A DNA stretch of 64,000 bases, taken from assembly GCF_000016165.1 (NCBI RefSeq), contig NC_009253.1:1832332-1896331 (forward strand), given 5' to 3'. Made by a program: the position numbers and the translations under genes. The notes under the pieces are model-generated. The model saw only the letters and a program-made list of their open reading frames with translations. It had not been told where the DNA came from and made no database searches. Every line of letters starts with the position of its first letter. The first letter of the stretch is position 1. The stretch comes from Desulforamulus reducens MI-1. Its GTDB lineage: Bacteria > Bacillota > Desulfotomaculia > Desulfotomaculales > Desulfotomaculaceae. Of this stretch, positions 1 to 45,153 are shown in pieces.

Positions 1-1026
1 GGTAATTAATGTATTTAAGCAGGGGAGTACTAAACCGGTACCAATACCGGCAACGGAAATGCCGGCAAAAAAGATGTAGACATTGTTAAAAAGAGGAAGT
101 GTAACCAGGGAAGCACCGATTAAACCATGTCCAATAACCACTAGCCACTTCATTAGTTTGATTTTCTTTTTAATTAACGCCCCAGTAACATATGAAGTAG
201 TACTCATGAATAAAACAGGGATAGCAAGGGCGGCACCTTTAATGACCCCATCAAGTCCGAATTTTTTTTCGAGATAGTCAGACAAAAAGAATAATACGCC
301 AAATAAAATCAATAGGGCTGCAGAACCGGCAAAGAAGCTTGTTAAAAGCAAAGGTGATTTTTTTTTGAAAATATTTTTAATGGAACCCACATACTCATTT
401 ACTTTCTTGGGCTGCTTATTGGTTTCTGGTTCCTTGCAAATAAACCATACTCCCAGAATAACTACCGCAATGACAACGGGGAAGAAAAAGAAAATGTACC
501 ACCATGCTATTAAACCAATAAGTGCTCCTAAAATAGGACTGGCCACTTTACCTAAACCGTTGGATGCTTCAATAACACCTAAGGATTTAGCCCTTTCTTT
601 TCCTTTCCATAGATCCCCGCAGAAGGCCATGGCAATGGGAGCCGTACCTGCAGCCCCGATACCTTGCAAAATACGACCACCCAAGATCCAAGGAAAAGCA
701 TTTTCTTTGAAAATAAGTGCCGCAGCACCTGCCAGAAGGCCACCCAGTCCATATAAAAAGAGTCCAGGGATAATGATTTTTTTTCTGCCAAAACGATCAG
801 ATAAAAATCCAGCAAAGGGAATTACAAGTCCGGCTGGTACTGAAAACAATGTAATAATTAAGCTTATTTGCATCTGAGAAACATTTAAGGACTTTGCCAT
901 TTGCGGAAGAACAGGAATTAACATGGAATTTCCAAGGACCATGATTAGAGGCACTCCGGCCAAAGCGGCCAGGGTATATTTATTCACCTTATTTTCTTGA
1001 ATGTCAGTTGATGCAGCTTGTGACAA
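1..1026 (-). CDS. MFS transporter (3' end beyond window)
   Basis: The minus strand is open from a TTG at 1026 to the window edge (342 codons). The product is a multi-membrane-segment major facilitator superfamily protein. The first helix follows a short polar N-terminus. The family loop 2-3 signature (G-x-L-S-D-R-F-G-R-K) lies near residue 65, and a helix containing GRILQGIGAAG follows near residue 105. This is the layout of 12- or 14-helix drug or metabolite exporters. AGGA lies 10 bases before the TTG. An in-frame GTG is nearer but has no usable spacing, so TTG is preferred. Substrate is unknown. It is divergent from the yqhV-like gene and shares a short regulatory gap with it. Confidence 0.85.
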   Translation of the reverse strand, partial: MSQAASTDIQENKVNKYTLAALAGVPLIMVLGNSMLIPVLPQMAKSLNVSQMQISLIITLFSVPAGLVIPFAGFLSDRFGRKKIIIPGLFLYGLGGLLAGAAALIFKENAFPWILGGRILQGIGAAGTAPIAMAFCGDLWKGKERAKSLGVIEASNGLGKVASPILGALIGLIAWWYIFFFFPVVIAVVILGVWFICKEPETNKQPKKVNEYVGSIKNIFKKKSPLLLTSFFAGSAALLILFGVLFFLSDYLEKKFGLDGVIKGAALAIPVLFMSTTSYVTGALIKKKIKLMKWLVVIGHGLIGASLVTLPLFNNVYIFFAGISVAGIGTGLVLPCLNTLIT

Positions 1027-42400: not shown

Positions 42401-43279
42401 TTGTTTGAAGGGGTTTTAATAAGGGCCTACGGTGGTTTTTACTATGTAAAAAAGGGCGATGAAATCTGGGAATGCTCCCTAAGGGGGAAATTTCGGCTTG
42501 GCAAAAGCTCACCAGCCCTGGTGGGTGACCGTGTCATGGTAACGCCTGTCAGGCAGAATACAGGACGAATTGATGAAGTAATGCCAAGAAAGACAGAGCT
42601 GTTTCGACCAGCGGTTGCCAATATTGACCAAGCAGTGATTGTTTTTGCAGTGGAAAATCCCGAACCAAACATGACCCTTTTGGACCGCTTTCTTGTTCTT
42701 GCTGAGAATGCCGAAGTATTGCCGGTGGTATGTCTTAATAAAGGAGATCTCCTCACTTCTCGTAGAGATCATGAATGGCTCAAGCTATATAAAAGAATTG
42801 GCTATCCCACCATTATCACCAGCACTAAACTAGGTGAAGGCATTAACGAATTACGGCAGTTACTCATTGGTAAAACCACTGTATTTGCGGGTCCTTCGGG
42901 TGTAGGAAAATCCAGTTTACTAAATGCTATTCAACCGGGCTTGGAACTTAAAACAGGTGATATTAGCCATAAGCTAAAAAGAGGAAAACACACGACTCGT
43001 CACGTTGAATTACTCCCACTAAATAAAGGGGGCTATGTGGTGGATAGCCCTGGGTTTTCCAGCCTCGATCTACCACAGATGAACAAAGAAGATTTGGCAT
43101 ACTATTTCCCCGAATTTACTGGGTTTATTGCAGACTGTAAGTTTAATGGATGTCTGCATCATCGTGAACCCCAATGTGCAGTTAAGGATGCCTTAGATGC
43201 AGGTCTAATCAATAAAGAAAGATACCAAAACTATTTATTATTTTTGGAGGAAGTTCTTCAGCAAGAGAGGAGATACTAA
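42401..43279 (+). CDS. rsgA: Ribosome small-subunit GTPase A
   Basis: 292 residues. Circularly permuted GTPase that matures 30S subunits: OB domain, then NKGD (G4) near residue 111, GPSGVGKSSLLN (G1) near 166 and DSPGFSS (G3) near 212. A C-terminal zinc region has DCKFNGCLHHREPQC. Start is TTG at 42401 after CCAAGGGAG. In Bacillus it likewise follows prkC and precedes rpe. Confidence 0.95.
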   Translation: MFEGVLIRAYGGFYYVKKGDEIWECSLRGKFRLGKSSPALVGDRVMVTPVRQNTGRIDEVMPRKTELFRPAVANIDQAVIVFAVENPEPNMTLLDRFLVLAENAEVLPVVCLNKGDLLTSRRDHEWLKLYKRIGYPTIITSTKLGEGINELRQLLIGKTTVFAGPSGVGKSSLLNAIQPGLELKTGDISHKLKRGKHTTRHVELLPLNKGGYVVDSPGFSSLDLPQMNKEDLAYYFPEFTGFIADCKFNGCLHHREPQCAVKDALDAGLINKERYQNYLLFLEEVLQQERRY

Positions 43280-43281
43280 TA

Positions 43282-43938
43282 ATGATTAAGATTGCACCCT
43301 CCATTTTGTCAGCGGATTTCGCTAACCTTGCTCAATCAGTTCAGGTAGTGGAACAAGCAGGAGCTGAATACTTACATATTGATGTGATGGATGGTCATTT
43401 TGTACCCAATATAACCATTGGTCCCTTGATTGTTAAAGCCTTAAGACCCAATAGCAATATGGTATTTGATGTACACTTAATGATTAATAATCCCGATGCA
43501 TATGTTCCTGAATTTATAAAAGCAGGAGCAGACTTAGTTTGTGTCCACGCCGAAGCTTGCCCACATCTTCATCGGTCCCTTAGCCAAATAAAGGAGCTAG
43601 GCGCCAAGGTTGGTGTGGCCCTAAATCCGCATACACCGCTTAATGTGATTGAGTATGTACTACCTATGTTGGATTTGGTATTACTAATGACCGTAAACCC
43701 TGGTTTTGGTGGACAAAAATTTATTCCAGAAGTATTACCTAAAATCAAGATGTTGTCCAATATGATCCAGGAACGTGGTTTAGCCACGGAAATTGAAATT
43801 GATGGGGGAATCAATACAGAGACTGCTCCATTGGTTGCCCAGGCCGGAGCCAATGTTCTGGTAGCAGGTTCCGCCATTTTTGGTGCAACTAATCCTGCTC
43901 AGGCAGTTGCTGATATCCGAAAATCTGCAGGGGCTTAA
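43282..43938 (+). CDS. rpe: Ribulose-phosphate 3-epimerase
   Basis: 218 residues. TIM-barrel enzyme interconverting ribulose 5-phosphate and xylulose 5-phosphate. Motifs: APSILSADFANL at the N-terminus, HIDVMDGHFVPNITIGP near 34, MTVNPGFGGQKF near 137 and EIDGGIN near 172. It overlaps the ribosome site of rsgA's end with a two-base gap and closes the long housekeeping run. Confidence 0.96.
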   Translation: MIKIAPSILSADFANLAQSVQVVEQAGAEYLHIDVMDGHFVPNITIGPLIVKALRPNSNMVFDVHLMINNPDAYVPEFIKAGADLVCVHAEACPHLHRSLSQIKELGAKVGVALNPHTPLNVIEYVLPMLDLVLLMTVNPGFGGQKFIPEVLPKIKMLSNMIQERGLATEIEIDGGINTETAPLVAQAGANVLVAGSAIFGATNPAQAVADIRKSAGA

Positions 43939-43972
43939 TACCATTGCTCCAAACAAAAGGAGGTGGAAAGAG

Positions 43973-44041
43973 ATGGCTGTATGGAAATGTCAAAAATGCG
44001 GTGCCACCAAGGAAGATTATGTAAAGGATGAGGCAAAGTAA
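43973..44041 (+). CDS. 22-residue microprotein with one CxxC knuckle
   Basis: The frame reads MAVWKCQKCGATKEDYVKDE plus two residues and a stop. It is preceded by AAAGGAGGTGG at seven bases, one of the strongest ribosome sites in the window. The start resembles rubredoxin-like RCKP-type proteins (MAVWKCxxCGATKE-), but those continue to a second CxxC, absent here. It could be an intact microprotein that dimerises around a metal, or the remnant of a longer gene. It lies between rpe and a bidirectional terminator. Confidence 0.6.
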   Translation: MAVWKCQKCGATKEDYVKDEAK

Positions 44042-44086: not shown

Positions 44087-44110
44087 ACTGCCGGAAACCC
44101 GGCAGTCTTT
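44087..44110. terminator. Bidirectional terminator between microgene and the minus-strand gene
   Basis: ACTGCCGG-AAAC-CCGGCAGT with CTTT on the plus side. On the minus strand the same stem is followed by TTTGTTTTTT. It would end both the rpe-side transcript and the minus-strand gene at 44109-44348. Confidence 0.8.
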
Positions 44111-44348
44111 AATTTGTGTTTTTTTCAGTTTCATTTACCATTTCTGATACCAGACGGAGGGTAGATACTGTGTTGGTGAGAAGGATCTCATAAAGCATAA
44201 TGGGTAAAACATCTTGCAGGGTAGCTCCCAACTCCCCGGATTGAACCTTCTTAGCAACAATATCACCTGCTCTGTTTAAACTGTTATTAACCAAAGTAAT
44301 AATTTCTTCTTGGTGCTCTTGAACAAATTTGTCAACATCGACGGTCAT
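44109..44348 (-). CDS. Unrecognised small helical protein
   Basis: 79 residues, predicted mostly helical, no Cys and no membrane segment. N-terminus MTVDVDKFVQEHQEEIITLV; the middle has a hydrophobic LPIMLYEILLTNTVSTLRLV stretch. I do not recognise a family. GGAAAGG lies about eleven bases before the ATG and a terminator follows the stop. A dimeric helical bundle is plausible, but no function can be inferred. Confidence 0.6.
   Translation of the reverse strand: MTVDVDKFVQEHQEEIITLVNNSLNRAGDIVAKKVQSGELGATLQDVLPIMLYEILLTNTVSTLRLVSEMVNETEKNTN

Positions 44349-44441: not shown

Positions 44442-45153
<712 letters not shown>

Follow-up and report, generated by a model that had tools for sequence, protein, structure and literature searches.

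A 22-codon one-knuckle frame in Desulforamulus reducens MI-1 is probably a truncated remnant of an RCKP-type rubredoxin-like gene

We report that a frame of 22 codons with a single CxxC knuckle, located downstream of rpe in Desulforamulus reducens MI-1, is best read as the remnant of a recently truncated RCKP-type rubredoxin-like gene that has lost its function and is decaying, a reading to which we give a probability of roughly three in four. That the frame arose by an in-frame deletion within this known small family is, on the sequence comparisons given below, close to certain. This corrects a possible annotation as a "minimal metal peptide", as a single deletion in a single lineage accounts for both the length of the peptide and its number of knuckles. 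The window, i.e. the whole stretch of 64,000 nucleotides that was analysed at C1:1832332-1896331 of the genome, has the features given in Table 1, together with two sets of loci in other genomes that are referred to in the text.

Table 1. Coordinates of the features discussed (window positions unless a locus is named)
Feature	Position	Strand	Basis or remark
rsgA, conserved second upstream neighbour	42401..43279	+	profile match, gene order
rpe, ribulose-phosphate 3-epimerase, conserved upstream neighbour	43282..43938	+	302.5 bits, cut-off 212.6
Ribosome-binding site AAAGGAGGTGG	43956..43966	+	six bases 5' of the ATG; similarly strong sites in nine relatives
Shortened RCKP-type rubredoxin-like gene, 22 codons plus stop, one CxxC knuckle	43973..44041	+	translation, NF045720 match, alignment to relatives
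Remaining knuckle CQKC, codons 6-9	43988..43999	+	Cys6 and Cys9 invariant in the 13-row alignment
Deletion junction, at which one copy of ACCAAGGAAG is left (TKE and one further base)	44006..44015	+	two copies in relatives, 45 bp apart
Terminator-like hairpin between the 22-codon gene and the convergent gene	44087..44106		found on both strands
79-residue convergent gene, function unassigned, family-conserved at the locus	44109..44348	-	gene order in relatives
adk, adenylate kinase, downstream	44512-45153	+	
Shortened RCKP gene of G050	L147 (G050:C26), about 762-824		20-residue one-knuckle frame
Loci with a CxC second knuckle	L070:4001-4111, L071:195-305, L072:4001-4111, L073:4001-4105; also L012, L014, L015, L018, L019		

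Results

The short frame and its ribosome-binding site

The frame opens with the ATG at 43973, its stop ends at 44041, and its 22-residue translation (MAVWKCQKCGATKEDYVKDEAK) has the single KCQKCG knuckle that the first-pass annotation, made from the sequence alone, had described. A longer gene of 53 codons starting from the in-frame TTG at 43880 was considered and rejected, since both the homology and the ribosome site start at 43973. Pfam searched with the 22-residue peptide gave HalOD2 alone, at 16 bits and under the cut-off of 27.

The anti-Shine-Dalgarno pairing energy of AAAGGAGGTGG is -16.9 kcal/mol. None of the 51 long ORFs of the window (at least 100 aa, chosen greedily with little overlap) reaches this value with its best start, their best being -15.3, and among the 2287 ATGs on both strands the one at 43973 is alone in doing so. 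Because this is the best ribosome site in the window, the 22-codon frame with its strong signal is real and chance is excluded. The site had been described as stronger than that of most genes and as lying seven bases before the ATG; in pairing energy it in fact exceeds that of all the long ORFs, but the spacing is six bases. Judged from the relatives, this strength is an inherited trait of the full-length gene, the sites of which in nine relatives range from -14.3 to -17.9 kcal/mol against -16.9 in the window. The peptide is perhaps still translated, in some amount.

The parent family and the full-length relatives

The NCBIfam model NF045720 for RCKP-type proteins matches residues 1-14 of the peptide to model positions 1-14 of 34 with 29.5 bits (E 4e-7; 26.4 bits in the genome search), i.e. 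below the curated cut-off of 45 bits, and the earlier remark that the start resembles RCKP-type proteins is thereby borne out. The first knuckle, MAxWKCxxCG, is present, and residues 1-10 are identical in eight of the nine relatives, the ninth having Leu3. Deleted from the peptide are the RCKP/RCRP motif and the second cysteine knuckle; the alignment has Arg-Cys-x-Pro, as well as a second knuckle, in all 13 full-length rows.

The nine relatives are the eight other genomes of the genus that were searched and one more of the family (G009); they include D. putei, D. aeronauticus and D. aquiferis. G002 and G009 are metagenome-assembled genomes. All nine encode a full-length RCKP-type protein of 35-38 residues (e.g. 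MAVWKCQKCGATKEGRCRPQKCVCGGTKEDFVKDEAK) with residues nearly those of the peptide, and these proteins score 52.8-55.1 bits with NF045720, over the cut-off of 45. When 60 related genomes were searched with the peptide, members of the genus matched twice, with starts approximately 60 bases apart, the two matches covering residues 1-17 and 5-22 (5-20 in D. aquiferis). The length is thus 35-38 residues in 9/9 relatives and never 22, the short form being present in one of the nine genomes of the genus, that of the window; no further short form near the query was seen in a class-wide search (113 genomes, apparently the same set as for the order). Of the two possibilities raised in the first-pass annotation, a truly minimal metal-binding peptide of its own kind does not agree with this, as the 22-residue length recurs in 0/9 relatives, while a truncated gene does, as the full-length version is found at the same place in the relatives.

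As a separate observation, all nine full-length proteins of the family to which the window belongs have CxC (KC[VA]CG) as their second knuckle, with one residue fewer than in CxxC; in the 13-row alignment CxC is seen in the four rows from this family and CxxC in the other nine. This is an earlier one-codon change, by which the metal site may have been altered before the deletion in the window.

A profile search of the genome of the window (single contig, 3,608,104 bases) gave no other NF045720 match over the cut-off. Nine matches below the cut-off were listed. One (L002) is the 22-codon gene itself. Six of the other eight (L001 and L003-L007) were read by eye and belong to other proteins or are a small frame of another kind; by our labels they are two rubrerythrin-like proteins, a P-loop ATPase, a flavin-reductase-like protein, an AbrB/SpoVT-like regulator and a 65-residue frame with its own second CxC. 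A second intact copy elsewhere in the genome was rejected on these grounds. In the PDB, a sequence search with a full-length relative gave only weak matches to rubredoxin, rubrerythrin and L37Ae (best E 0.02). In the literature, "RCKP" as a whole word was found only in papers unrelated by title and "RCKP-type" was absent among the matches listed, no halved rubredoxins were found, and "rubredoxin" does not occur in the main text of PMC4759654, a proteome paper on D. reducens.

The locus

The 22-codon gene follows rpe (stop ending at 43938) after 34 bases, and the order rsgA-rpe-RCKP-convergent gene-adk is identical in 8/8 genomes of the genus; in G009 the contig begins after rpe, and the convergent gene and adk are present. 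The gene thus shares its place with the full-length members, with rpe upstream and the convergent gene and adk downstream, in all eight genus genomes, and here we count this shared locus as a sign of membership by our own criterion of descent, not by one of NCBIfam. The convergent 79-residue gene shows 75-89% identity in 9/9 relatives, has no Pfam match, and its best NCBIfam score is 13.9 bits against a cut-off of 95. A promoter-like site lies 5' of adk at 44442-44469.

Some features of the neighbourhood are recorded here for their own sake. Only 67 bases lie between the 22-codon gene and the convergent gene in the window. At the corresponding place in G009 (L071:311-548) there are arrays of a 34-bp unit (CTAACAACAGGACCC...) that face each other and form large inverted repeats, with arms of up to 90 nt that are 81% complementary, and D. 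putei has a shorter version of these arrays in the same intergenic place (L070:4136-4302). D. putei also has a second rpe paralogue on another contig (G001:C35:6050-6697), with 63% identity to that of the window and no RCKP gene behind it. The adk product has an intact four-cysteine LID (CKNCG ... CNSCNG); the like domain of the Bacillus subtilis adenylate kinase is counted as rubredoxin-like in the review PMC13348028.

An in-frame deletion of 45 bp between direct repeats

Alignment of the DNA to the nine relatives reveals a 45-base gap (15 codons, in frame) in the window alone; the tail of one relative (L016) has a 6-base gap of its own. The deleted 45 bp sat between two copies of a TKE-coding repeat: in 9/9 relatives the two TKE codon stretches are exactly 45 bp apart, and 13-18 of 22 bases agree between them. 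The 15 lost codons correspond to GRCRPQKC[VA]CG[GA]TKE and include three of the five cysteines, all five of which are conserved in the 13 full-length relatives aligned. Because the deletion is in frame, the tail of the peptide, DYVKDEAK, is the C-terminus of the parent protein itself. This native tail rules out a frameshift as the lesion, and the first-pass annotation, which had expected a frameshift, missed the nature of the damage in this respect. On comparison with the relatives, the event is a 45-bp loss between TKE direct repeats, and a gap so placed is what a repeat-mediated in-frame deletion is expected to leave.

The parent was, as the relatives show, a 37-codon RCKP-type rubredoxin-like gene with TKE encoded in both halves. 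It lost 45 bp in frame, and with them went the RCRP motif and the second knuckle, including three of the five conserved cysteines; the first knuckle is now fused to the native C-terminal tail, with the inherited ribosome site and the stop codon in place. We propose that the deletion arose by slippage or recombination between the short direct repeats. As a single chain with two cysteines falls short of a four-cysteine metal site, the function of the parent would be lost, and the shortened gene would be at an early stage of decay.

Presence and loss of the gene across the order

The order has 57 RCKP matches, 55 over the cut-off and two (G091 and G036) slightly under it, and 51 of the 57 are on the strand of rpe and follow it by no more than 280 bases; the other six are that of G009, which is without an rpe hit, and five elsewhere, including that of G032, which falls within an open frame of 346 residues. 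By this distribution, the link between the RCKP gene and rpe reaches beyond the genus and is old.

For 105 genomes of the order with an rpe hit, many of the surveyed genomes being incomplete, the region downstream of rpe was surveyed for frames starting with ATG, GTG or TTG in the first 500 bases of each stretch (approximately 450 beyond rpe) and having C-x(1,2)-C. Frames in L093, L101, L102, L109, L112, L118, L120, L122, L132, L135, L137 and L142 and the second frame of L146 were set aside by eye as unrelated. The RCKP gene is beside rpe in 51 genomes (including G067, where it is cut by a contig end with model positions 1-27 seen, and G091 and G036 with their scores slightly under the cut-off), it is shortened in two (the genome of the window and G050), none was seen in 51 (five with a match elsewhere; three of the stretches, L090, L111 and L122, are cut by contig ends), and the remaining one (G094) has its rpe hit at a contig edge.

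The second shortened gene, in G050 of another family, has an independent in-frame deletion of 108 bp when compared with three sister genomes. Its product VAAWKCEECEQSVFLKGLDP has 20 residues with a GTG start, as placed by alignment, and keeps one CxxC; Val3 is replaced by Ala, and at the junction the Gly that follows the knuckle has been lost. The frame continues past the stop of two of the three sisters, and the third sister (G087) likewise continues. The Gly is invariant in the 13 aligned rows but Asp in G091, and its loss in G050 is therefore a weak sign of decay. Both deletions kept the first knuckle and the frame. Because the second half has been lost twice independently and the gene is absent in many genomes, the RCKP gene is, across the genomes surveyed, dispensable and often lost.

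Age of the deletion

Over the shared codons, the window differs from each of the nine relatives by 3-10 synonymous codons and by 1-4 amino-acid codons (for L016, one counted amino-acid difference is its earlier stop). Every one of the 22 residues is found at its place in some relative, which supports the remnant reading, and none is private to the window. With approximately 51 nonsynonymous sites and zero private changes, neutral divergence after the deletion is by our estimate no more than about 0.06 changes per site (3/51). Only a small part of the branch is covered by this, given that dS of rpe is beyond measure in 8/8 comparisons and that dS over the shared codons, where measurable, takes the values 0.67, 0.92 and 2.1 (twice). 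As there is no private change against so large a dS, the deletion would be young or the remnant under selection (one genome of the species), and a young deletion is the simpler reading.

Discussion

Taken as a decaying remnant, the gene would probably encode a non-functional product. Counter to decay, its ribosome site, frame, knuckle and tail are intact and the deletion is the sole damage, and the explanation that ranks next, although we consider it unlikely, is a working half-rubredoxin in which two peptides would pair through their CxxC knuckles around a single ion of iron or zinc. In rubredoxin-like folds one metal sits between two knuckles; one knuckle cannot hold the metal alone, but two chains can. 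The genus of the window is anaerobic, so that reduced thiols survive there. Moreover, the two halves of the parent are alike around the knuckles and TKE, and its predicted model (mean pLDDT 86.4, pTM 0.52) is most like rubrerythrin and rubredoxin domains, with TM over the query of 0.83 for the rubrerythrin 9fj2 and 0.69-0.77 for several rubredoxins; this structure search gave no match with E <0.001 (E 0.12 and above), and MCM helicase zinc domains were also listed. The strong ribosome site, the intact frame and the lack of private residues also fit a working peptide, which at the sequence level has its one two-cysteine hairpin per chain in CQKC (residues 6-9). In the designed peptide METP, two chains come together on a metal to form a Cys4 site, and iron is bound (PMC8434281), but METP is a design and binds Zn only in the micromolar range (Kd 2.7 uM; PMC8434281). 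Against such a function are also the occurrence of the short form in 0/9 relatives and the alteration around the knuckle in the other natural remnant, that of G050. Slightly less probable still is the fuller proposal of a natural "hemi-rubredoxin", in which the repeat deletion would have returned a two-knuckle protein to a 22-residue, one-knuckle, metal-bridged homodimer in an anaerobe; if true, the kind of duplication that may have given rise to such two-fold folds would here have run in reverse, in a living genome.

An artefact of sequencing or assembly, in which the internal repeat of a full-length gene was collapsed, would agree with the single genome and with a deletion that ends within a short direct repeat. 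We find it improbable, as the short copies of the repeat (about 10-20 bp) lie 45 bp apart and should be spanned by ordinary reads, and the genome, a single contig, has a completeness rating of 100%.

A short frame with a strong ribosome site that is followed by a hairpin terminator is also reminiscent of a leader peptide or attenuator by which translation would be sensed and a downstream gene regulated. There is, however, no long frame on the + strand past the hairpin before adk, approximately 0.4 kb on, adk has its promoter-like site, the convergent gene is on the other strand, and the RCKP homology accounts for the frame, which makes this explanation very improbable. A known RNA family was likewise rejected: the sole Rfam match up to E 1 has E 0.42, is below the gathering score and lies on the other strand. 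Finally, a minimal metal peptide born de novo and unrelated to the RCKP genes, as its 22-codon length alone might suggest, is refuted by the alignment, given that the full-length gene of the relatives lies at this locus, encodes nearly the same residues and has a ribosome site of equal strength.

The locus is also a natural experiment, in which native sequences of 37 and 22 residues can be used to find out if metal binding survives in half of a rubredoxin-like fold. The peptide resembles the NF045720 RCKP-type proteins in that its residues 1-14 match the start of the model, its gene has the same place and its tail is like that of the relatives; it is unlike them in being without the RCKP/RCRP motif and the second knuckle, and in having 22 instead of 35-38 residues. 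With METP, which was modelled on rubredoxin (PMC8434281), it shares one two-cysteine hairpin per chain; METP is, however, designed and has 11 residues, while the window peptide is a natural deletion product known from its sequence alone. The one-knuckle rubredoxin halves treated in PMC8434281 and PMC13348028, in the parts cited, are designed peptides, and the window would provide a natural one-knuckle sequence of miniprotein size by which the idea of a half-rubredoxin becomes testable. METPsc1 (PMC10130062), a designed rubredoxin miniature, has both turns in one chain, unlike the window peptide. A natural METPsc1-like Zn-ribbon of 37 residues from Lactobacillus (PMC13348028) is likewise a very small natural rubredoxin-like protein; it has two turns per chain, a trait that the full-length RCKP proteins share and the window peptide does not. 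The same review presents METP, the natural 37-residue two-turn protein and the half-ferredoxins as steps between peptides and miniproteins. The half-ferredoxins, or semidoxins, are likewise halves of a two-fold-repeated metal protein; the putative natural ones are limited to anaerobic bacteria, and half-ferredoxins worked poorly in a cellular assay except at very low oxygen (PMC13348028). Semidoxins bind 4Fe-4S, whereas the window peptide has a rubredoxin-like knuckle and is a half that has arisen by loss from a longer gene.
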